NCBI GenBank assembly: GCA_902787555.1
Contig: CADAGO010000030.1
Location: 1-49,248, forward strand
Direction of reading: 5' to 3'
Length of the DNA stretch: 49,248 nucleotides
From: an uncultured Bacteroidales bacterium
Lineage (GTDB): Bacteria; Bacteroidota; Bacteroidia; Bacteroidales; Bacteroidaceae
Positions 18,032 through 33,416 of the stretch are shown piece by piece; positions within the stretch are counted from its first letter, which is position 1, and every line of letters starts with the position of its first letter. The notes under the pieces were generated by a model. The model ran no database searches and was not told the origin of the DNA. It saw only the letters and a list, made by a program, of their open reading frames with translations. Made by a program: the position numbers and the translations under genes.

Positions 18032-18223
18032 GTACACGGTGAGCCTGTCGAATCTGTACACGGTGAGCCTGTCGAATCCGTACACGGTGAGCCTGTCGAA
18101 TCTGTACACGGTGAGCCTGTCGAATCTGTACACGGTGAGCCTGTCGAATCTGTACACGGTGAGCCTGTCGAATCCGTACACGGTGAGCCTGTCGAATCTG
18201 TACACGGTGAGCCTGTCGAATCC
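18032..18223. repeat. Eight tandem copies of a 24-bp repeat (core TGAGCCTGTCGAA)
   Basis: Units of exactly 24 bp start at 18032 and every 24 bp to 18223. They differ only at one position (AATCT or AATCC end). The core is the reverse complement of TTCGACAGGCTCA, which recurs in the corrin operon. Because 24 is a multiple of 3 and the unit has no stop in these frames, several frames stay open across the array. The units are contiguous with no spacers, so this is not CRISPR. Confidence 0.95.
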
Positions 18224-18245
18224 GTACCCGACAACAAGCCTAAAG

Positions 18246-18359
18246 TCGCTCCGTAGGTGCTCCGTAGGTGCTCCGTAGATGCTCCTTAGGTGCTCGGTAG
18301 GTGCTCGTTAGGTGCTCGGTAGGTGCTCGGCACTCTGCGGGATTTACGGCTGTTTTGAC
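18246..18359. repeat. Eight 11-bp tandem repeats with a fixed 3' tail
   Basis: Units like GTGCTCGGTAG run from 18246 to 18333, the last being GTGCTCGGCAC. Exactly 15 nt later comes GCTGTTTTGAC (18349-18359). The same last unit, the same 15-nt gap and the same tail occur at 37320-37356. This is a dispersed element of unknown function. Confidence 0.85.
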
Positions 18360-23427: not shown

Positions 23428-24903
23428 TTGAAAAGAATCATTTCGACAGGCTCAAGACGTATCATCGTAGCAGGCATAGGACCTGGCAGCCAAGAAGACA
23501 TCACTCCCGCAGTGATACAAGCCATCAGTGAAAGCGACGTGGTAGTGGGCTATAAGTACTACTTCCAGTTCATTACGCCCCATCTTCGCCCTGATGCAGA
23601 ATGTATCGACACAGGTATGAAGCATGAACGCGAGCGTGCCGAGCAGGCATTCCAGCTGGCGGAGCAAGACAAAACCGTATGTGTCATTTCGAGTGGTGAT
23701 GCAGGTATCTACGGAATGGCTCCACTCATCTACGAGATGAAGCAGGAACGAAACTGCGATGTTGAGATAGAGGTGCTCCCAGGAATTTCTGCCTTTCAAA
23801 AAGCTGCGTCATTACTTGGTGCGCCTATAGGTCACGACTTATGTGTCATCTCACTCAGCGACCTGATGACTCCTTGGGAGCGAATCGAACGGCGTATCAG
23901 GGCAGCTGCCGAAGCCGATTTCGTGACCGCCATCTACAATCCCAAGTCGCACGGTCGCTATTGGCAGCTCTACCGTTTGCAAGAGTTGTTCTTAAAGGAA
24001 CGTGCAACAGACACACCTGTGGGCTATGTTCGTCAGGCAGGACGTGAGGAGCAGGAAATAACAATCACAACTCTTGGCGCTTTCGATCCTGAAGACGTAG
24101 ACATGTTTACCGTTATCCTTATAGGCAATTCCTGGTCGTATGTGGCTGATGGTAAGATAATCACACCTCGAGGGTATTATAGAGGTGAGAAACCAGAAGT
24201 ATCATTTCGACAGGCTCAAGATGTATCATTTCGACAGGCTCAAGATGCAAGAGGTGAGAAGATAGGTCAAGATATCATGATGGAATCGTTCCGCACGATT
24301 ACATCGGAATTGAAGCGCGACTATCCCCTCGACCACAAGTGGGCATTGCTCCATGCTATTCACACTACCGCAGACTTTGAAATGGAGGATATTCTCATTA
24401 CGGACAAAGGTGCCGTAGAGACCATATATAATAAGGTAAAGAACGGCGAGCTGAAAACCATCATTACTGATGTAACGATGGTGACGAGCGGTATTCGTAA
24501 GGGAGCATTGCAGCGACTGGGCATTGAGGCAAAGTGCTACCTCAGCGACCCTCGTGTAGCAGAGATGGCAGCCTCGATGGGGATTACGAGGACACAAGCA
24601 GGCATTCGTCTTGCCGCAGAGGAGCACCCCGATGCGCTATTCGCCTTTGGTAATGCCCCCACAGCCCTGATGGAACTATGCGACCTCATTCGCAAAGACA
24701 AAGCCCACCCTGCAGGTATTATCGCCGCACCAGTAGGCTTCGTCCATGTAAAGGAGTCGAAACACATGGTGAAACCTTTCAAGTCTATTCCAAAGATTAT
24801 CGTCGAGGGGCGTAAGGGCGGCAGTAACCTCGCTGCGACGCTATGTAATGCCATCCTCACCTTCGACGATGCTGAACAACTGAAACCTGGACGCGACCTG
24901 TAG
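23428..24903 (+). CDS. CobJ/CbiH-CbiC fusion: precorrin-3B C17-methyltransferase and precorrin-8X methylmutase
   Basis: The 491-aa protein has two corrin-pathway enzymes. Residues about 11-250 are the SAM-dependent C17-methyltransferase that contracts the ring (IVAGIGPGSQEDI, SSGDAGIYGMA, LPGISAFQKAASLLGAPIGHD). Residues about 284-491 are CbiC/CobH, which moves the C11 methyl to C12 (HAIHTTADFEMEDIL, ITDVTMVTSGIRKG, GNAPTALMEL, APVGFVHVKESK). The linker (about 255-283) contains two in-frame copies of the 24-bp repeat, read as SFRQAQD. A third copy at the N-terminus (ISTGSRR, residues 5-11) separates MKRI from IVAGIG. The start is a TTG at 23428 with no clear ribosome-binding site. It follows the TonB receptor by 18 nt. 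Confidence 0.92.
   Translation: MKRIISTGSRRIIVAGIGPGSQEDITPAVIQAISESDVVVGYKYYFQFITPHLRPDAECIDTGMKHERERAEQAFQLAEQDKTVCVISSGDAGIYGMAPLIYEMKQERNCDVEIEVLPGISAFQKAASLLGAPIGHDLCVISLSDLMTPWERIERRIRAAAEADFVTAIYNPKSHGRYWQLYRLQELFLKERATDTPVGYVRQAGREEQEITITTLGAFDPEDVDMFTVILIGNSWSYVADGKIITPRGYYRGEKPEVSFRQAQDVSFRQAQDARGEKIGQDIMMESFRTITSELKRDYPLDHKWALLHAIHTTADFEMEDILITDKGAVETIYNKVKNGELKTIITDVTMVTSGIRKGALQRLGIEAKCYLSDPRVAEMAASMGITRTQAGIRLAAEEHPDALFAFGNAPTALMELCDLIRKDKAHPAGIIAAPVGFVHVKESKHMVKPFKSIPKIIVEGRKGGSNLAATLCNAILTFDDAEQLKPGRDL
23439..23462. repeat. Single 24-bp repeat copy at the cobJ N-terminus
   Basis: Core TTCGACAGGCTCA at 23442-23454, bounded on both sides by ATCAT. Removing one 24-bp unit would restore MKRIIVAGIG. 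Confidence 0.8.
24201..24248. repeat. Two tandem 24-bp repeats in the cobJ-cbiC linker
   Basis: Cores at 24206-24218 and 24230-24242 are exactly 24 bp apart. The pair is flanked by AGAGGTGAGA (24181-24190) and AAGAGGTGAGA (24249-24259) direct repeats, themselves typical intergenic repeat sequence. Confidence 0.9.
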
Positions 24904-24947
24904 AAAATGTAAAAATTATAAAATGATAAAATGTAAAAATTAAAGAA
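24904..24947. repeat. AT-rich AAAATGTAAAAATTA repeat spacer
   Basis: Short degenerate AAAATG(T)AAAAATT repeats fill the gap between cobJ-cbiC and the cbiE-cbiT gene. A comparable sequence splits cbiA at 31503-31543. Confidence 0.6.
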
Positions 24948-26192
24948 TTGAAGTTCATCGTTATAGGCATCACAGACCATCCGCAACCGTTCTTTTCACC
25001 CGAGGTCCTGTCGATTATCACGAGTGGGCGGTTCTTCTCAGGCGGCAAACGTCATCATGAGATAATGGCACCGCTCCTGCCTCTTGATGCGGAGTGGATA
25101 GATATCACCGTTCCGCTCGACGCCGTCTTCACGCAGTATTCGCTCACCTTTCAACAGTCGCCTATCACCACTATTGTGGTTTTCGCGTCTGGTGATCCAC
25201 TATTCTATGGTTTTGCAAATACGATTCAGCGCAAGATGCCCGATGCCGAAGTAATCGTCTACCCTACCTTCAACTCACTACAGATGTTAGCCCATCGACT
25301 TGTGATGCCCTATCACGACATGCGGATCGTATCACTGACGGGGCGACCTTGGGCAGATTTCGACAAAGCCCTTATCGAACGAGCCTCAAAGATAGGCATC
25401 CTCACCGATAAGGAACATACGCCTTCTACTATTGCCCAAAGAATGCAGGAATATGGATACTGCGACTATACGATGCACGTAGGCGAGCATTTAGGCAATC
25501 CTGCCAAGGAGAAAGTGACAAGCCTCTCCCTTACTGATGCTGCCATTTCGACTGGCTCAAGATGTACCCAACACACATTCGAGCATCCCAACTGCATCAT
25601 ACTCTCAACCACAAAATCACAACTCCCCCCAAGAGAATACGGTATTCCCGACTCCGACTTTGCCCTGTTGGACGGTCGTGAAAAGATGATTACCAAGATG
25701 CCCATCCGGCTATTGACTCTCCAGGCACTAGACCTGCCTCGTCGTCATGTGCTATGGGATATAGGCTTTTGCACAGGCAGCATATCCATCGAAGCCCGAT
25801 TACATTTCCCCCATCTACAGATTGAAGCATTTGAGATTCGTCCTGAGTGCGAAAGCATCATCAAGCAGAATGCCCGCCGTTTTGGTACTCCAGGCATCAG
25901 TATCCATATAGGCGATTTCCTGAAAGCGGATTTATCGCGTCTGCCCCAACCCGATGCTGTATTCATCGGAGGACATGGGGGACAACTCAAAGAAATGATG
26001 ACGAAGGTGCTTTCCGTTCTTGCACCCTACGGAGTAATTGTGATGAACAGCGTTAAGGCACCACTCGTCAAGACCGACAGCCTTCAGCTATGGAATAAAG
26101 CCTGCGAAGAATTAGGACTCAAGCAAGACACCCCAACAAGAATACAACTCAACGAACATCACCCCATAACAATATTGAAATGCAGAAGATAG
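24948..26192 (+). CDS. CbiE-CbiT (CobL-type): precorrin C5- and C15-methyltransferase/decarboxylase
   Basis: The 414-aa bifunctional enzyme methylates C5 and C15 and decarboxylates the ring side chain in late corrin synthesis. Residues 1 to about 215 are CbiE (FIVIGITDHPQPFF, FASGDPLFYGFA, YPTFNSLQMLAHRL, LTDKEHTPSTIAQRM). Residues about 230-414 are CbiT, with a Rossmann SAM motif (VLWDIGFCTGSISIEA), EAFEIRPE and DAVFIGGHGGQLKEMM. A 24-bp repeat copy (core 25547-25559, one mismatch) is read as AISTGSRC near residue 200, in the loop before the last CbiE strand. The start is TTG at 24948. The end overlaps cbiG-cobM by 13 nt. Confidence 0.93.
   Translation: MKFIVIGITDHPQPFFSPEVLSIITSGRFFSGGKRHHEIMAPLLPLDAEWIDITVPLDAVFTQYSLTFQQSPITTIVVFASGDPLFYGFANTIQRKMPDAEVIVYPTFNSLQMLAHRLVMPYHDMRIVSLTGRPWADFDKALIERASKIGILTDKEHTPSTIAQRMQEYGYCDYTMHVGEHLGNPAKEKVTSLSLTDAAISTGSRCTQHTFEHPNCIILSTTKSQLPPREYGIPDSDFALLDGREKMITKMPIRLLTLQALDLPRRHVLWDIGFCTGSISIEARLHFPHLQIEAFEIRPECESIIKQNARRFGTPGISIHIGDFLKADLSRLPQPDAVFIGGHGGQLKEMMTKVLSVLAPYGVIVMNSVKAPLVKTDSLQLWNKACEELGLKQDTPTRIQLNEHHPITILKCRR
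25546..25569. repeat. Single 24-bp repeat copy inside cbiE
   Basis: TTCGACTGGCTCA (25547-25559) followed by AGATGTA matches the dispersed repeat with one core mismatch. It is read in the same frame as the copy at the cobJ N-terminus. Confidence 0.75.
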
Positions 26193-27976
26193 CCATTATA
26201 CAAATCGGCGATACAGGCAGCGAGATTACCTCGATACTGAAAAGACAATTAGGCGCTAAAGCCATTCAGCGTACAGAGATTGGCAAACAATGGAAGAAAT
26301 ACGATGCGTTTATCTTCATTGGCGCTATGGGCATCTGTGTGCGAACCATCGCTCCGTATATCAAGGACAAGCATGAAGACCCCGCGGTAGTTTGCATCGA
26401 CAGTTTGGGCAAGAATGTCATCTCAGTACTCTCAGGTCATATTGGAGGAGCCAACGATTTGACTCTCGAGATAGCCGGACTTATGGGTGCACGTGAGGTG
26501 ATCACCACTCAAAGTGATAATGCAGGACTATGGGCTCTCGACACATTTGAGAAGCGTTTCGACTGGCCTATAGCAAGTGACATCTACGAAATGAACGAAT
26601 GCATTTTTGCATTCGTCAACCGTCAGCCAACCGCCCTACTCCTTGAGGCACGTGACGAAGGCACAGACTACCTAGAGGCCACAAAGCCCGATCATGTCAC
26701 CATCATCAACGATATCCGTGAAGCTGACCCACAAAAATATAAGCTGCTGATAATGGTTACTCCCTATAGCCGTCGGGCACCTGACGGCATGCTTGAACTG
26801 CATTTCGTACCGATGGTGGGAACAATCGGTTTCGGATTGGCTCATCATCCCGATGACTATGAAGCCATCTACGACGAAATCGACGAGGCTTTTGCCCAAA
26901 GAGGCATTCTGCCTTGTGCCCATCGCTACTGCACGATTGACGTCAAAGAGGACGAGGAATTCTGCTCAATGCTCGAATATGATTACGAAGAAGAGGTAGT
27001 GTTCTTCACGGCAGAGCAGTTGGCACAAGTCGAGGTACCCAATCCCAGCGCTACCGTTCAGAAACATGTGGGTACACCTAGCGTCTGCGAGGCAGCAGCC
27101 ATCCTGGGTTCCAATCATGGCAAACTGATTATTCCAAAGGTAAAAGGCAAAAACTGGACGGCAGCACTTGCAATCGACTATCAACACCTTCGCAATTCCT
27201 CTGGACGCCAGATAGATGCAGGACACATTGAGATAGTGGGTGCAGGACCTGGCGACCCCGACTTGGTAAGTGTTCGAGGCAGAAAGATGTTGGAACAAGC
27301 CGACCTCATTCTCTATGCTGGTTCGCTGGTACCCAAAGCATTGACAGAGTGCCATAAGCCTGGTGCCATTGTACGCTCCTCCGCAAACATGAACCTTGAA
27401 GAACAGTGTGCGCTAATGAAGGAACATTACGATAAGGGCCACTTCATCGTCCGTCTGCATACAGGCGATCCTTGCATTTTTGGCGCCATTCAGGAACAAA
27501 TGGCATTCTTCGACCAGAACGGAATGAACTATCACATCACGCCAGGTATCTCATCGTTTCTAGCCGCAGCAGCCGAACTCAGAAGCCAATTTACCATCCC
27601 AGAGCGTTGTCAGACTATCATCCTGACACGGGGTGAAGGCCGCACACCGATGCCCGAGAAGGAGCAGTTACACCTATTAGCCAAGAGTCAGAGCACGATG
27701 TGCATCTTCCTCTCCGCCTCTATCGTTGATGATGTACAACGAGAACTGCTACAGGAATACCCCGAAGACACTCCCGTTGCAGCCTGCTACCATCTCACCT
27801 GGCCCGATCAGAAAATCTATCGTGGCACGTTGAAAGATCTGGCGAAAATTGTTCACGACAACAACCTGACACTCACCACCATGCTCGTTGTAGGCGAGGC
27901 TATCGACAATCGACAAGGCTTCTCTGAGTTATACAACAAAAACTTCACGCATCTGTTTAGGAAAAGCGAGCAATGA
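26180..27976 (+). CDS. CbiG-CobM/CbiF fusion: cobalt-precorrin-5A hydrolase and precorrin-4 C11-methyltransferase
   Basis: The 598-aa protein carries CbiG at the N-terminus (about 1-340): FIFIGAMGICVRTIAPYI, VISVLSGHIGGANDL and the C-terminal CbiG part around CEAAAILGSNHGKLIIPK. This enzyme opens the delta-lactone in the anaerobic route. CobM/CbiF occupies about 350-598 (IEIVGAGPGDPDLVSVRG, YAGSLVPKALTECH, LHTGDPCIFGAIQEQM, TPGISSFLAAAAEL), which methylates C11. This order makes sense because C11 methylation precedes lactone opening. The gene overlaps its upstream neighbour by 13 nt and its downstream one by 4 nt (ATGA), so translation is probably coupled. No repeat copy was found in it. Confidence 0.94.
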   Translation: MQKIAIIQIGDTGSEITSILKRQLGAKAIQRTEIGKQWKKYDAFIFIGAMGICVRTIAPYIKDKHEDPAVVCIDSLGKNVISVLSGHIGGANDLTLEIAGLMGAREVITTQSDNAGLWALDTFEKRFDWPIASDIYEMNECIFAFVNRQPTALLLEARDEGTDYLEATKPDHVTIINDIREADPQKYKLLIMVTPYSRRAPDGMLELHFVPMVGTIGFGLAHHPDDYEAIYDEIDEAFAQRGILPCAHRYCTIDVKEDEEFCSMLEYDYEEEVVFFTAEQLAQVEVPNPSATVQKHVGTPSVCEAAAILGSNHGKLIIPKVKGKNWTAALAIDYQHLRNSSGRQIDAGHIEIVGAGPGDPDLVSVRGRKMLEQADLILYAGSLVPKALTECHKPGAIVRSSANMNLEEQCALMKEHYDKGHFIVRLHTGDPCIFGAIQEQMAFFDQNGMNYHITPGISSFLAAAAELRSQFTIPERCQTIILTRGEGRTPMPEKEQLHLLAKSQSTMCIFLSASIVDDVQRELLQEYPEDTPVAACYHLTWPDQKIYRGTLKDLAKIVHDNNLTLTTMLVVGEAIDNRQGFSELYNKNFTHLFRKSEQ

Positions 27977-29709
27977 TTCTTATATTCGGAGGGACTACGG
28001 AAGGACGACGAGCTACAGAGGTGCTAGAGGAGGCAGGCAAACCCTACTGCTACAGCACGAAGACAGGCGAACAAGACATCAGCCTGCATCACGGCCTACG
28101 CATCGATGGTGCTATGGATGGCGAGGAAATGTGTGCCTTTTGCCGTAAGCACCAGATATGTCTGATTGTCGATGCTGCCCATCCGTTTGCCTCAAAGCTT
28201 CACCAGACAATAGCCAGAGTTGGTACTTTGTTGCAAATGCCCATCATCCGATATGAGCGCATCTATCCACCTCGCGACCCTGACATCGAATGGATTGACG
28301 ACTATTTGCAGGTTCCTACTAACATTCATACGTTACTTGCCACTACGGGCGTACAGAGCATCAGCATATTAAAGTGGTTGGAGGAAAAAGGTATCAAAGT
28401 AATCTATAGAATCCTGAACAGAGAAAGCAGTATTGAGTTGGCTCATCAACAGGGAGCAAGCGACGAACAGTTGTGCTTCTATGAGGATGGAAATACCATC
28501 GATGTAGATGCCGATGCTATCTTGCTGAAGGAGAGCGGCATTTCAGGCGGATTTGTGGAGAAAGTGGAGGCTGCAAAAAAACGAGGCATGCGTATCATCG
28601 CCCTGAAACGGCCTAGCCTCACCTCTACCCCCTCACCTCTCACCTCTTATACCGTGAATGGTCCTTACGGATTACGGCGCATGGTGGAGAAACTATTGCC
28701 CGACTTCTTCCCTATGAAAACGGGACTGACGACGGGTGCATGTGCTACAGCTGCAGTGAAAGCTGCGCTGCTGTCACTAATGGATGAGGAATCCGACGAA
28801 GTGACTTTTGCGCTACCCGACGGGGAGACGTTGAGTGTACCAGTCCACGTGGAGCAGATGGGAGTGGCAAGCGTAGTAAAGGACTTCAGTGACGACCCCG
28901 ACGTGACTCGAGGTTGTACGATTATTGCCAAAGTACGGCTCACAGACACACCCGACATTCACTTTCTTCAAGGCGAGGGTGTAGGTGTCGTCACACTGCC
29001 AGGATTGGGATTGCCTGTGGGCGAACCTGCCATCAATCCTACCCCACGCAAGATGATTGAGACAACGATTCGCGAACTGACCGAACGTGGTTGCGACATC
29101 ACCATCTCAGTAGTGAACGGTGAAGAACTGGCACGAAAGACTTTCAACTCGAGGGTAGGTGTCGTAGGTGGTATTTCGATTATCGGCACATCGGGCATCG
29201 TATCTCCTCTGAGCAACGAGGCTTTCATCGAAAGCATACGCCGCGAAATGGAGGTAGCGCGTGCTATCGGATGTATGGAGATAGGATTGGTGTCAGGAAA
29301 GACAAGTGAGGATGCACTTCATTTCGATAGGCTCAAGATGTATCGCCGGGAACGTGACATCCGCTGTATTCATTACGGAAACTTCATTGGTGAAGCGCTG
29401 AAATCGGCCGCAGAATTGGGATTCCAACATGTCATCGTTGCCATCATGATAGGAAAGGCAGTAAAACTAGCGGAAGGACATCTTGACACCCACAGTCATA
29501 AGGTGACGATGAACAAGGAGTTTCTAAAACAGATAGCAGGTCCCGATGCCGACAAGATTGACCATATAACCCTCGCCCGCGAACTATGGGACACGATGCC
29601 CCCTACATTCTTTGAGGCGATACAAGACTTATGTTACAAACATTGCCGAAAGGTGTTCCCTGAAGGCGACCTAACAATACGACTCGTATGCGACAAACAA
29701 CCATCATGA
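27973..29709 (+). CDS. CobK/CbiJ-CbiD fusion: precorrin-6A reductase and cobalt-precorrin-5B C1-methyltransferase
   Basis: In this 578-aa protein residues 1 to about 245 are the NADPH-dependent CobK/CbiJ reductase (MILIFGGTTEGRRATEVLEE, VDAAHPFASKLHQ, RYERIYPP). From Met248 (MKTGLTTGACATAA) it is CbiD, the C1-methyltransferase of the anaerobic pathway (VVTLPGLGLPVGEPAINPTPRKMI, GISIIGTSGIVSPLS, EGHLDTHSHKV). A Thr/Ser/Pro loop (about 217-225) near the end of CobK is encoded by CACCTCT-type repeats. A 24-bp repeat copy is read as HFDRLKM at residues 450-456 within CbiD, between KTSEDA and the conserved YGNFIGEALK segment. It overlaps cbiG-cobM by 4 nt and the permease gene by 22 nt. Confidence 0.93.
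   Translation: MILIFGGTTEGRRATEVLEEAGKPYCYSTKTGEQDISLHHGLRIDGAMDGEEMCAFCRKHQICLIVDAAHPFASKLHQTIARVGTLLQMPIIRYERIYPPRDPDIEWIDDYLQVPTNIHTLLATTGVQSISILKWLEEKGIKVIYRILNRESSIELAHQQGASDEQLCFYEDGNTIDVDADAILLKESGISGGFVEKVEAAKKRGMRIIALKRPSLTSTPSPLTSYTVNGPYGLRRMVEKLLPDFFPMKTGLTTGACATAAVKAALLSLMDEESDEVTFALPDGETLSVPVHVEQMGVASVVKDFSDDPDVTRGCTIIAKVRLTDTPDIHFLQGEGVGVVTLPGLGLPVGEPAINPTPRKMIETTIRELTERGCDITISVVNGEELARKTFNSRVGVVGGISIIGTSGIVSPLSNEAFIESIRREMEVARAIGCMEIGLVSGKTSEDALHFDRLKMYRRERDIRCIHYGNFIGEALKSAAELGFQHVIVAIMIGKAVKLAEGHLDTHSHKVTMNKEFLKQIAGPDADKIDHITLARELWDTMPPTFFEAIQDLCYKHCRKVFPEGDLTIRLVCDKQPS
28620..28650. repeat. CACCTCT repeat encoding a loop in CobK
   Basis: CCTCACCTCT-type tandem units are read as SLTSTPSPLTS. 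The reverse complement (AGAGGTGAGA) flanks the repeat pair in the cobJ-cbiC linker. Confidence 0.55.
29317..29340. repeat. Single 24-bp repeat copy inside cbiD
   Basis: TTCGATAGGCTCA (29323-29335) plus AGATGTATC matches the repeat with one core mismatch. It is read in the third frame, different from the cobJ and cbiE copies and from the linker pair. Confidence 0.8.
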
Positions 29710-30707
29710 CATTGCTCGTGCTGAGCATCCCTGTGTTTGCACTGCTCAACATTACAATGGGTTCGGTTCCCATCCCAATCCGTGAGGTAGCCAACATCCT
29801 GCTGCATCCCGACAGCTACGACCCCTCTGACGTGAATATGCTCATTGTAATGAATACCCGTCTGCCCCAGACACTCACAGCACTAGCTTGTGGAGCAGGA
29901 CTGGCTGTTGCCGGATTGGAGATGCAGACCGTGTTTCACAACCCACTTGCCGGTCCGTCAGTACTGGGTATCAGTAGCGCTGCCAGTCTCGGCGTAGCAT
30001 TCGTTGTGTTGCTCTCTGGCACTATTGGAGGAGGCATCATGTCGCGCTTCGGCATCTTCGGCAACACAGCACTCACACTGGCCGCTATCGCTGGAGCATT
30101 AGCCGTGATGATGCTGATTGTATGGCTTTCACAAAAAGTGCAGGGAAATGTCACATTGCTGATTATCGGTGTAATGATTGGGTATATCGCTTCGGCCATC
30201 ATCGGTGTGCTGAAGTATTTCTCATCAGAAGAGGACATCCGTGCGTATGTCATTTGGGGACTGGGCAGCTTTGCCCGTGTGACAGGCGGTCAGGTCTATG
30301 TATTCACAGGTTTGATGGCCCTGCTCCTCCCCTTCTGCATGTTGTTGGCCAAGCCGCTCAACATGCTCCTGTTGGGCGAACAGTATGCTATCAGCCTAGG
30401 ACTGAATATCCGTCGTGCTCGCCTGCTCATCATTACGTCGTCAGGCGTGCTCATCGCTATCGTCACAGCCTACTGCGGTCCCATCATGTTCTTGGGATTA
30501 GCTGTTCCGCACATTTGTCGCGGACTATTCCGCACAGACGACCACCGTCTGCTTCTGCCTGCCACCCTGCTGTGTGGAGCATCCATCGCACTTGTATGCA
30601 ACCTCATCGCCCGACTGCCTGGCTTCGAGGGTGCATTGCCTATCAATTCCGTAACGGCACTGATTGGAGCACCTGTAGCGCTTTGGGTGTTGCTAAGGAG
30701 GAAATAA
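29688..30707 (+). CDS. BtuC/FecCD-type ABC transporter permease
   Basis: The 339-aa polytopic inner-membrane permease belongs to the BtuC/FhuB/FecCD family, which typically has ten helices. Signatures are RLPQTLTALACGAGLAVAGL, the QTVFHNPLAGPSVLGISSAA motif near residues 84-103, and the coupling-helix region GPIMFLGLAVPHICRGLF near residue 270. It should transport corrinoid or siderophore-type ligands; corrinoid is inferred from the operon. It overlaps the cobK-cbiD gene by 22 nt. A BtuF-like binding protein is encoded at 32256-33416 on the other strand. The matching ATPase gene is absent from the window. Confidence 0.92.
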   Translation: MRQTTIMTLLVLSIPVFALLNITMGSVPIPIREVANILLHPDSYDPSDVNMLIVMNTRLPQTLTALACGAGLAVAGLEMQTVFHNPLAGPSVLGISSAASLGVAFVVLLSGTIGGGIMSRFGIFGNTALTLAAIAGALAVMMLIVWLSQKVQGNVTLLIIGVMIGYIASAIIGVLKYFSSEEDIRAYVIWGLGSFARVTGGQVYVFTGLMALLLPFCMLLAKPLNMLLLGEQYAISLGLNIRRARLLIITSSGVLIAIVTAYCGPIMFLGLAVPHICRGLFRTDDHRLLLPATLLCGASIALVCNLIARLPGFEGALPINSVTALIGAPVALWVLLRRK

Positions 30708-30822
30708 GAATTGTGAAGAGTTAAGTCCTCCCTCTTTCATCTCCAAGGGGATCATTTCGACAGGCTCAAGATGGATGAAGGGAGAAGTTCAAGAAGTTTA
30801 AGGAGTATTTAGTATAAAGCGA
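30708..30822. repeat. Spacer before cbiA with a hairpin-type and a 24-bp repeat
   Basis: This 115-bp gap contains a CCTCCCTC..CCAAGGGG element (30727-30750), then a 24-bp repeat copy (core 30756-30768), then AAG-rich sequence. No promoter or terminator was recognised. Confidence 0.65.
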
Positions 30823-31506
30823 ATGGATAGAGTATTAATTGGTGCTGCTACGTCGAACAGTGGGAAGACAACCTTCACCATTGGTCTGCTCCGTGCTTTG
30901 CGCGACCGTGGAATGAATGTACAGCCTTATAAGTGTGGACCCGATTATATCGATACAATGTTTCATGCTATTGCTTCGGGACACGAATCGGTAAATTTGG
31001 ACACGTTTCTCGCATCGCCCCAGCATGTGGAGGAGATATTTCAGCACTACGGAACTGATGCCGATGTGCGAGTGGTGGAAGGTGTGATGGGTCTCTACGA
31101 CGGATATGACCGTTGGCGGGGATCGAGTGCAGAGATGGCAGAACTGCTCCACTTGCCCGTCGTTCTCGTTGTCAATGCAAAGTCGGCTGCCTACAGCGTT
31201 GCACCGCTCATCTACGGCTTCCGACACTTCAGGTCGCCTGGCATCGCGGCTGTGGTATTCAACCAAGTAGCTTCACCCTTGCATTTCGAGTACCTGAAGG
31301 AAGCCTGTGAGGATGCCGGTGTGACGTGCCTTGGTTATATGGCACGTAACGAACGCCTCGTGATTCCTGAACGTCACCTTGGGCTCACCATTTCTGCACG
31401 TGAGGAGATGGAACGACTCATCGCCCTTGCAGCCGAAGAGGTAAACCTACATGTAGACATAGATAACCTGTTGCGGTTAAGTAATGCAAAAATGCAAAAA
31501 TCGTAA
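30823..31506 (+). CDS. CbiA N-terminal half: cobyrinate a,c-diamide synthase ATP-binding domain
   Basis: The 227-aa protein corresponds to the N-terminal dethiobiotin-synthetase-like domain of CbiA/CobB: ATSNSGKTTFTIGLLRAL (P-loop), PYKCGPDYIDTMFH, VVEGVMGLYDGYDRW and VVFNQVASPLHFEYL. This domain activates the a and c carboxylates with ATP. In most bacteria it is continuous with a glutaminase domain of about 220 aa. Here it ends at TAA 31504-31506 within AT-rich repeat sequence, and the glutaminase domain follows as a separate ORF in another frame. All core motifs of this half are intact. It lies 115 nt after the permease gene. Confidence 0.9.
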   Translation: MDRVLIGAATSNSGKTTFTIGLLRALRDRGMNVQPYKCGPDYIDTMFHAIASGHESVNLDTFLASPQHVEEIFQHYGTDADVRVVEGVMGLYDGYDRWRGSSAEMAELLHLPVVLVVNAKSAAYSVAPLIYGFRHFRSPGIAAVVFNQVASPLHFEYLKEACEDAGVTCLGYMARNERLVIPERHLGLTISAREEMERLIALAAEEVNLHVDIDNLLRLSNAKMQKS

Positions 31507-31543
31507 ATGGTAAATGGTAAATAGTAAAATGGTAAATGACCCT
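31503..31543. repeat. TAAATGG repeats splitting cbiA
   Basis: About five degenerate units of (A)GTAAATGG/TAAATAG lie exactly at the CbiA interdomain junction and introduce stop codons. The sequence resembles the AT-rich spacer at 24904-24947. Confidence 0.75.
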
Positions 31544-32170
31544 ATGAACATCCTCATTGCACACGACGAAGCGTTCAACTTCACCTACAGAGCCAACATC
31601 GATGCTCTGCGTCGAATGGGTAAAGTGTCGTTCTTCTCACCGCTTCACGACACAACTCCGTTCTCCAACCTCTTACCCGGCGCTCAACGCACAACACAAG
31701 ACTCTCAACTCCTCATCTACCTTCCTGGCGGCTATCCCGAACTCTTTGCTGAACAACTTTCGGCTAACCGCTCGATGCGCGAAAGCATCAGGGAGTTTGC
31801 AGAACAAGGCGGACGAATCTATGCCGAATGTGGCGGATTCATGTATCTCACCCACGACATCGACGGCATGCCTATGTGTGATGTCTTTCCTATCGAAGCT
31901 ACGATGCACAATGCTCATCTCCATTTAGGCTATCGGCAGATGACTATCGGCAATATGACGGTTCGTGGCCATGAGTTCCATTACTCAGATATCGTACCGC
32001 CACAAAAAATGCCCGACGAAATCATCGTCGAGCAAAATCAATGCTCTGCGCGTGGCACCCATGTACCTACCGCCATCTATCGTTACAAGAATGTCGTGGC
32101 AGGCTATACCCATTGGTATTGGGCGGAACATCCCTCAACATTCGGGTACATCTTGAGCCCGTCGAAATGA
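31514..32170 (+). CDS. CbiA C-terminal half: glutamine amidotransferase domain
   Basis: The 218-aa ORF is the class I glutaminase domain of CbiA, which supplies ammonia for amidation. It contains MNILIAHDEAFNFTYRANID, LIYLPGGYPELFAEQL, the nucleophile Cys in IYAECGGFMYL, and the C-terminal His in VVAGYTHWYWAEHP. The start may be 31514 (7 nt after the previous stop, with about ten repeat-encoded residues) or the ATG at 31544, which gives the natural domain start. It is in a different frame from the N-terminal half, so readthrough alone cannot join them. The last residues (YILSPSK) and the TGA come from the first unit of a 24-bp repeat array. Confidence 0.88.
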   Translation: MVNSKMVNDPMNILIAHDEAFNFTYRANIDALRRMGKVSFFSPLHDTTPFSNLLPGAQRTTQDSQLLIYLPGGYPELFAEQLSANRSMRESIREFAEQGGRIYAECGGFMYLTHDIDGMPMCDVFPIEATMHNAHLHLGYRQMTIGNMTVRGHEFHYSDIVPPQKMPDEIIVEQNQCSARGTHVPTAIYRYKNVVAGYTHWYWAEHPSTFGYILSPSK

Positions 32171-32242
32171 TACATCTTGAGCCTGTCGAAATGATACATC
32201 TTGAGCCCGTCGAAATGATACATCTTGAGCCTGTCGAAATGA
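32147..32242. repeat. Four tandem 24-bp repeats at the operon junction
   Basis: Units TACATCTTGAGCC(C/T)GTCGAAATGA start at 32147, 32171, 32195 and 32219, alternating C and T at one position. They lie in the opposite orientation to the copies within the corrin genes. The first unit encodes the end of cbiA-C including its stop; the last ends 14 nt before the stop of the convergent btuF-like gene. Confidence 0.95.
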
Positions 32243-32255
32243 TACATCCTCATCG

Positions 32256-33416
32256 CTAACCCCTAACCGCTATCCGGTAATACTTCGGCGTGTAGTGCGG
32301 CAGCAGTTCGGGATGAAAGGCCTTCACAAAGTCTGCCAGCAGGATATGAGGCTCGACTGGTGAGAGTTCACGATAAGGTGTGCGACTCAGATTGCAGAAC
32401 AGCACTTGCTGCTGCTTGAAGGCTTTCATATGTGCATATCGAGGGTCTTCATTCTCCAACGTGGCAAGTGTATAGTCGCCATCGTAAGCTCCGTCAATCT
32501 GCCAGAAGTCAGCATTCACACTCTTGGCAAATACTTCCTCAAAATCGAGCGTCGTACCGCCTGAGTCGTCGTTATCAGCCATCACATAGTCGGCTCCTGC
32601 ATCTTTGAACAGTTGTGCCAGATAGCTCTGACCGCCTACCACATACCATCCGTCACGCATCTGCCGTCCGCTTGCCACGGTTGGTTTCGCTTTCGCACCC
32701 ATCATCTCCTTCACCTCTTCCCTCAGCTTCAGATACTTCTTCTCGATATCGGCAAACACCGCATTTGCCCTACGGGTCTCGCCCGTGAGGAGTCCTATCA
32801 GCTTGATCCATTCTGCCTGTCCCAGCGGATTGGTTTCCTTGTATCCGTGATGGGTGATGATGGGGATGCCGCATTCAAGCAAGGCTTCGAAACCGCCATG
32901 CTTGCTTGCCGACACGAAGATGTATTCTGGACGGGTAGCGATAACGGTCTCAAGGTCGAAGTTTCCCTCCTTGCCTATCTTGACAGTCTTCCCCTCGTCC
33001 ATCTGCTGACGCATCTTACGGTCGAAGATGTTCTTCAGCGAGTTCATGCCCACGATACGGTCTTCCAGTCCCAGCACCTCGAAATTGCCTAGTTGCAGGG
33101 CTGTCGTACAGATGAAGCGCGATGAGGGCTGTGTGATGACCAGTTCCTCAAGCCCCCCTCCGGCTCCCCCTCTATGGGGAGAGAGCGACGGATCGGGATT
33201 CGTAATCTGCACATGAACGCCGTCGTTCTGATAGTCCACCTTCAGTCCTTTCGCGTATTTGATGACAATCGTATCGGAGTAGTTGTCAGCCAGCGCAAAA
33301 AGCGAATCATGACGCATAAAGAGCGAGTCGGCTGAAATATCAGCCGACTGCTTCATGCTATTCCCACACGACAGCAACATCAGTGGGAGCAGTAAGAGTG
33401 ATAGTCGTTTTATCAC
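32256..33416 (-). CDS. BtuF-like periplasmic-binding lipoprotein (corrinoid/iron-complex type)
   Basis: The 386-aa protein has a lipoprotein signal (MIKRLSLLLLPLMLLSC) and a cluster-A/type III binding-protein domain: SSRFICTTALQLGNFEVLGL, IGKEGNFDLETVIATRPEYI, the long backbone helix around residue 220, and GQSYLAQLFKDAGADYV. It should deliver a corrinoid to an ABC importer; the riboswitch upstream of the operon supports corrinoid. A Gly/Pro-rich insert (DPSLSPHRGGAGGG, about residues 74-88) is encoded by a GC-rich hairpin repeat and is probably a surface loop. It follows cbiK by 15 nt and is the last gene of the riboswitch operon. Confidence 0.9.
   Translation of the reverse strand: MIKRLSLLLLPLMLLSCGNSMKQSADISADSLFMRHDSLFALADNYSDTIVIKYAKGLKVDYQNDGVHVQITNPDPSLSPHRGGAGGGLEELVITQPSSRFICTTALQLGNFEVLGLEDRIVGMNSLKNIFDRKMRQQMDEGKTVKIGKEGNFDLETVIATRPEYIFVSASKHGGFEALLECGIPIITHHGYKETNPLGQAEWIKLIGLLTGETRRANAVFADIEKKYLKLREEVKEMMGAKAKPTVASGRQMRDGWYVVGGQSYLAQLFKDAGADYVMADNDDSGGTTLDFEEVFAKSVNADFWQIDGAYDGDYTLATLENEDPRYAHMKAFKQQQVLFCNLSRTPYRELSPVEPHILLADFVKAFHPELLPHYTPKYYRIAVRG
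33148..33190. repeat. GC-rich hairpin repeat inside the btuF-like gene
   Basis: AGCCCCCCTCCGG..CCCCCTC and GGGGAGAGAG match the style of the elements at 345-408 and 3321-3416. It is translated as a Gly/Pro/Ser-rich insert. Confidence 0.6.

Follow-up and report, generated by a model that had tools for sequence, protein, structure and literature searches.

The cobalamin (vitamin B12) operon of an uncultured Bacteroidales bacterium poses the question of how a single 24-bp repeat came to be translated in several reading frames within the genes for corrin enzymes. We analyzed positions 1 to 49,248 of contig CADAGO010000030.1 (assembly GCA_902787555.1), and refer to this whole stretch of 49,248 nucleotides as the window. 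The repeat is recognised by a 13-base core, TTCGACAGGCTCA, which had 18 matches in the window at no more than one mismatch, while 100 dinucleotide shuffles of the window gave a mean of 0.08 and never more than 1. We consider that these units are probably the product of a recent, species-specific burst of a non-autonomous and very small dispersed repeat, similar in kind to the small dispersed repeats (SDR) and repetitive extragenic palindromes (REP) of other bacteria and frame-neutral by its length. The units and their host genes are as follows.

23439..23462, forward strand: 24-bp unit at the cobJ N-terminus, first core T at codon position 3 (ISTGSR)
24203..24250, forward strand: two tandem 24-bp units in the CobJ-CbiC linker, core T at codon position 2 (SFRQAQDV SFRQAQDA)
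25544..25567, forward strand: 24-bp unit with 2 mismatches in the CbiE-CbiT linker, core T at codon position 3 (ISTGSR)
29320..29343, forward strand: 24-bp unit with 1 mismatch inside CbiD, core T at codon position 1 (HFDRLKMY)
30753..30776, forward strand: 24-bp unit with 1 mismatch in the spacer upstream of cbiA
32146..32241, reverse strand: four tandem 24-bp units, lying between the 3' half of cbiA and a btuF-like gene
18035..18220, reverse strand: tandem array of eight 24-bp units belonging to sister subfamily C (core plus CCGTGTAC)
23428..24903, forward strand: cobJ-cbiC host gene, Pfam TP_methylase and CbiC
24948..26192, forward strand: cbiE-cbiT host gene, Pfam TP_methylase with structure matches to CbiT
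27973..29709, forward strand: cbiJ-cbiD host gene, Pfam CbiJ and CbiD

An earlier note on this DNA had placed the core at 23442, 24206, 24230 and 30756, and at 25547 and 29323 with one mismatch each, and all these positions proved right, as did the codon positions that it gave for the first T of the core. Its four inverted cores were located between 32154 and 32238, while the eight-unit array at 18035-18220, which shares the core and differs in the arms, was absent from it. The note had also stated that no frame of the repeat contains a stop; this holds for the three forward frames, all of which are open, and does not hold for the reverse strand, where two of three frames have a stop in tandem context. 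The units are read in each of the forward frames and in one of the reverse frames. We distinguished several subfamilies by the sequence around the core: subfamily A (CATTTCGACAGGCTCAAGATGTAT), which occurs also within GTCTAAA heptamers, subfamily C with the flanks GTACGGA and CCGTGTAC, subfamily E with the flanks GTACCCA and GGGTGTAC, and subfamily D, in which the core is followed by a CGACAAG-type tail.

Insertion of this frame-neutral repeat into genes is well supported by comparison with related genomes (G001 to G015 below). In cbiD, G004 and G012 showed an exact gap of 8 residues, or 24 bp, after a conserved SEDAL. In cobJ, our own reading of the alignment gave an exact 24-bp difference at AAT^CAT relative to G004/G013, the site being TTGAAAAGAAT[24]CATCGTAG in the window and ATGAAGCGAATCATCATAG in those two genomes. 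The tandem pair of the cobJ linker, which is a variable one, was missing from G004, G012, G013, G014 and G015, and both the whole spacer stretch before cbiA and the four-unit array at 32146..32241 were missing from G004/G013. The same was observed outside the window. One gene with no match in Pfam (L007) carried a unit in reverse, with a net 8-residue gap relative to it in G006, G007 and G012. A PG_1098-like gene (Pfam PG_1098_Fer and Thump_like) contained three E units, two in tandem and the third in a variable stretch; the tandem pair accounted for 16 residues missing from G001, G004, G005, G007 and G013, and for exactly 48 bp at codon level in G007, the other fragments having missed the site. 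In-frame insertion into conserved protein genes was found in this way, as read from the sequence. A D copy in a CN_hydrolase gene was present in the own genome (G000) and in G012 and absent from G004 and G006, indicating that subfamily D is older. The same-genus orthologues thus lacked the peptides encoded by the repeat, and the earlier proposal of a small dispersing repeat able to enter coding DNA in any forward frame was supported by these empty sites and by the presence of the 24-mer in just 1 of 17 genomes of the genus.

The 24-mer does occur elsewhere in the genome. The own genome (2.69 Mb in 55 contigs, 82% complete) held 36 exact cores, and the loci fetched from it gave 63 distinct core contexts at no more than one mismatch, with identical array members collapsed. 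At up to two mismatches there were 146 core matches as against 46 for a reversed control, so the weakest core matches are partly chance. Subfamily A, searched as CATTTCGACAGGCTCAAGATGTAT at up to three mismatches, had 27 sites on 11 contigs of the own genome, and 16 other genomes of the genus, drafts of 51-94% completeness, had none. Similarly, the A/C/E form TTCGACARGCTCANNRTGTAY was found 27 times in the own genome and once across the remaining 392 genomes sampled from the order. The exact core itself was present in 54 of the 251 family genomes, the own one included, and genomes rich in it were few and scattered (G088 with 37, G187 with 11, G152 with 7 and G148 with 6), the remaining listed genomes of genus g6 having 0 or 1 each. 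We grouped the 27 sites manually into 20 events, five of which lay in open reading frames (ORFs), namely the cobJ N-terminus, the cobJ linker, cbiE, cbiD and L007. Enrichment inside ORFs, raised as a possibility in the earlier note, is not supported by this fraction, which is far under the coding share of 87% that we assumed. Among 39 exact-core copies examined in the core-rich genomes (15 of the 37 in G088 and all listed ones of G187, G148 and G152), 8 were inside an ORF of at least 150 codons. At the G187/G148 loci (L175-L188) the core was seen in tandem units of 21 bp, a length again divisible by three, and most of these were not in long ORFs.

The ends of the unit were tabulated for 13 A copies, tandem members not being included; 5 were in unique contexts, and the other 8 are not independent because they lie in heptamer arrays. 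The 24 bases were preceded by T and followed by C in 11 of the 13, giving common ends at unrelated sites, T^[CAT-TTCGACAGGCTCA-AGATGTAT]^C. These ends fit equally well a 24-bp insertion at T^C and a 22-bp insertion with a duplicated TC (CC in cbiE). In the heptamer context the arrangement was GT^[24]^CTAAA within GTCTAAA arrays. Such arrays were found in 4 of the 17 genus genomes (the own genome, G006, G007 and G010), and the last three have the heptamers yet no 24-mer.

Units of 24 bp, or of 48 bp as a tandem pair, thus occupy sites that are empty in sister species, and we propose the following course of events. As the unit length is divisible by three and no forward frame is closed, each insertion adds eight residues and leaves the gene open, and the added residues at termini and linkers seem to be tolerated. 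The donor copy would likely be kept (copy-and-insert), as copies are numerous here and were not found in any sister genome searched. The ends may be recognised by a trans-acting enzyme other than Y1 or a REP-associated tyrosine transposase (RAYT) in the known part of the genome. Locally biased movement would produce clusters such as that at the cobalamin operon, tandem arrays could form by insertion beside a unit or by unit slippage, and most copies in genes would be purged by selection. The repeat is a candidate for one of the smallest mobile DNA elements.

Several observations weigh against this proposal. The MAFFT alignment sets the cobJ gap further left, across the start codon. The cobJ-linker and cbiE sites are both in variable linkers, so the edges of the cbiE unit are not provable. 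The gap in L007 is 5 residues in G013 rather than 8, and the orthologue rows of G006 and G004 contain internal stops. With regard to the ends, the cbiE copy has C on its left, the spacer copy is without the right C, and a variant on contig C21 (L008) deviates at both ends. The heptamer-embedded copies have longer flanks in common, so some of them may have spread as composite repeats. As single-stranded DNA the unit did not fold stably, the own A, C and E strings folding no better than shuffles. No enzyme was identified, the search having been one for Y1. Finally, no copy polymorphic within a species was seen, the sister genomes being drafts, and we therefore infer mobility from comparison between species only. 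We rate the proposal as probable, and slightly lower than we otherwise would because the cobJ edge rests on our own reading and two of the tabulated ends deviate.

The copies could also have arisen with no dedicated enzyme, by replication template switching, in which the polymerase copies a nearby 24-nt stretch by way of a 1-2 nt match (TC). The copies are indeed clustered within kilobases: 6 of the 20 events lay within 9 kb at the cobalamin operon, 5 of these 6 in the operon's sense, and 19 pairs were no more than 10 kb apart as compared to 1.4 expected, a number reached in 0 of 20,000 simulations. This clustering also speaks for the burst proposed above. The TC or CC flanks could represent microhomology, tandem arrays exist, and no Y1 transposase was found. 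On the other hand, random switching should vary the ends, whereas these are nearly constant at unrelated sites; the net length was 24 or 48 wherever it could be measured, and the copies are spread over 11 contigs. On this evidence we regard template switching as unlikely.

A RAYT-type REP, that is, a repeat mobilised by a Y1 HUH (histidine-hydrophobic-histidine) transposase, was considered as well. In many phyla the core forms part of REP-like palindromes whose arms are complementary, and PF01797 (Y1) was found in 14 of the 31 genomes searched, with one gene in same-genus G004. At L339, 1 of 30 Y1 loci, an inverted pair of core-like sites was close to the gene, on one side by our own reading of the coordinates. 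However, any core-like site in the fetched flanks was found at just 3 of the 30 Y1 loci, and G004 has the Y1 gene without the 24-mer. PF01797 was not found in the own genome (82% complete), in G088 (99% complete, 37 exact cores) or in G187, G148, G152 and G249, and the linked REP-type Y1 transposase suggested in the earlier note was accordingly lacking from the own genome as far as it is known. A RAYT-type origin is thus quite improbable. Separately, a candidate transposon bounded by two inverted copies on contig C20 was dropped; judged by its sequence, the gene between them appears to be RuvA.

Slippage of an old minisatellite (tandem repeat) within genes, instead of insertion, would be consistent with the period-24 arrays at 24203, 32146 and 18035; since slippage cannot relocate a unit, and single copies are found in unrelated genes and contigs at sites that are empty in relatives, we hold it to be very improbable. 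That the segments are functional peptides under selection in corrin enzymes, as four coding events in one pathway might suggest, has almost no likelihood, given that different frames give different peptides, that these are missing from same-genus orthologues and that 15 of the 20 events are outside long ORFs.

We return to the dispersal of the repeat by insertion and to the places in which the units are found. The coding hosts are three fusions, CobJ-CbiC, CbiE-CbiT and CbiJ-CbiD. The suggestion that the repeat settles in loops and linkers held for three of these places, since the N-terminus of cobJ and the linkers of CobJ-CbiC and CbiE-CbiT agree with domain boundaries. According to the domain matches, one copy in cobJ-cbiC lies before and the others between the two domains, and the linker units are flanked by matches to solved structures, one of which ends at 251 while the next begins at 274-280. 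The CbiE-CbiT unit is between Pfam TP_methylase (75-197) and CbiT structure matches from 221/231. The cbiD copy falls within the Pfam CbiD match, and the alignment of the solved relative stops short of that site. Elsewhere in the genome, D and E copies were seen in frame in GH43, CN_hydrolase, Peptidase M15 and PG_1098-like genes (L042, L048, L064, L066, L028; L066 was assigned by its likeness to L064).

Other features of the window were noted beside the units. The cbiA gene (30823-32170) consists of two ORFs, and it also reads as two in G004/G013, where they meet at ATGA, which makes the split older than the species; TAAATGG-type repeats additionally fill the junction in the window. The ORF upstream of the array at 32146..32241 terminates within the first unit of that array. 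The CbiJ-CbiD linker (about 28610-28660) varies by species, with SLTSTPSPLTS here, DNGSLSSDNGSLS in G012 and another insert in G004, and looks repeat-derived. The btuF-like protein (32256-33416) has NPDPSLSPHRGGAGGGLEE here and NPDPSVTQSKPEE in G004, the former being perhaps another translated repeat. Beside the eight-unit array, at 18240-18330, there are imperfect repeats of the GTAGGTGCTC type.

A scan with TTCGACAGGCTCAGGG identified at least 117 stretches with record titles of many phyla, a count that is no evidence by itself since equal-base arithmetic predicts about 120 occurrences of a 16-mer in 257 Gb. We took 80 loci from these matches. Among the matches listed, 146 sites of TTCGACNNGCTCA were present in 81 loci, and the arms (3 bases on each side of the core) were complementary at 124 of 138 positions relative to 62.7 with the arms dealt randomly, a figure based on 46 distinct sites from other phyla that do not fit the scan pattern and on shuffles that ignore relatedness. 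It is these extra cores beside the scan matches, together with the complementary arms, that argue for a wider family. For the own copies, complementarity was 50/108 as against 29.8 when shuffled; it was weak in G088 (38/42 against 32.4, reached by 69 of 2000 shuffles) and weak or absent in G187 and G148 together (37/66 against 33.8, reached by 343 of 2000). Two proteobacterial copies folded well (z -3.9 and -4.4) and a G088 copy weakly (z -1.5). We tentatively raise the possibility that TTCGACARGCTCA is the signature of a superfamily of minimal mobile elements found across bacteria, in which a conserved 11-nt loop is closed by a stem that varies with its two arms changing together, and which an unrecognised machine other than a RAYT would move. 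The repeat studied here might then be a weakly structured 24-bp member that has become frame-neutral, its eight codons being free of stops in three frames, and that so colonises conserved genes. Viral contigs gave one match to an 18-mer, with unrelated arms, which was taken as chance, and plasmid and phage collections gave no match to a 66-bp query containing the tandem pair. Rfam gave nothing at the gathering score in ten repeat-bearing loci, and in the window it gave two unrelated matches (a cobalamin riboswitch and a tRNA). Open full text, figures not covered, returned no paper for the core 13-mers and a single, unrelated one for the peptides of the core's frames.

If our proposal is true, the repeat would be among the smallest mobile DNAs, able to insert into protein genes and leave them unbroken, since it spans a whole number of codons and has no stop in any forward frame. 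It would also supply natural variants of vitamin B12 enzymes that carry eight inserted residues, the sister species serving as empty-site controls, and would make it testable what moves REP-like or SDR-like repeats where no RAYT is found.

Among known systems, the SDR of Nostoc (Elhai et al. 2008) are reportedly units of 21-27 nt, often in tandem heptamer arrays and limited to one lineage. Our 24-bp unit resembles them, by description, in being found at unrelated loci and also embedded in heptamer arrays; it differs in belonging to another phylum, in having units in translated gene frames and in its demonstrated empty sites. SDR5 is inserted between bases 3 and 4 of HIP1 (highly iterated palindrome 1), as related in passages of citing papers (PMC4390886, PMC2884548, PMC3116915). 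BrickBuilt, a miniature inverted-repeat transposable element (MITE) of Porphyromonas gingivalis, contains a 23-nt minisatellite and is described as intergenic, with a leader, a tail and terminal inverted repeats (PMC4596501). Both have tandem units at many places in the genome, 23-nt there and 24-bp here, whereas here single 24-bp units also occur within genes, a distinction again drawn from description. The GTAG/CGTC REPs are short palindromic repeats across phyla, some within genes, and the CGTC repeats are reported to be without a dedicated transposase, TGTC being permitted as a CGTC variant (Di Nocera et al. 2013, PMC3733652). Our core is likewise found in short palindromes across phyla, with some copies in genes. 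However, the 24-mer has neither GTAG nor CGTC on either strand, TGTC is inside its reverse strand and not terminal as in the CGTC REP tag, and the own subfamily A, which folded no better than shuffles, showed no stable hairpin; unlike in GTAG REPs and REPINs (REP doublets forming hairpins), no repeat-flanked RAYT (Y1) was found in the own genome, which is 82% complete. The Rickettsia palindromic elements (RPE) are reported to be 105-146 bp long, to form long stem-loops and to be tolerated in frame in conserved protein genes (PMC2229807). Our repeat shares with the RPE the in-frame insertion in conserved genes, here as deduced from the nucleotides, while being 24 bp in length and read in several frames.

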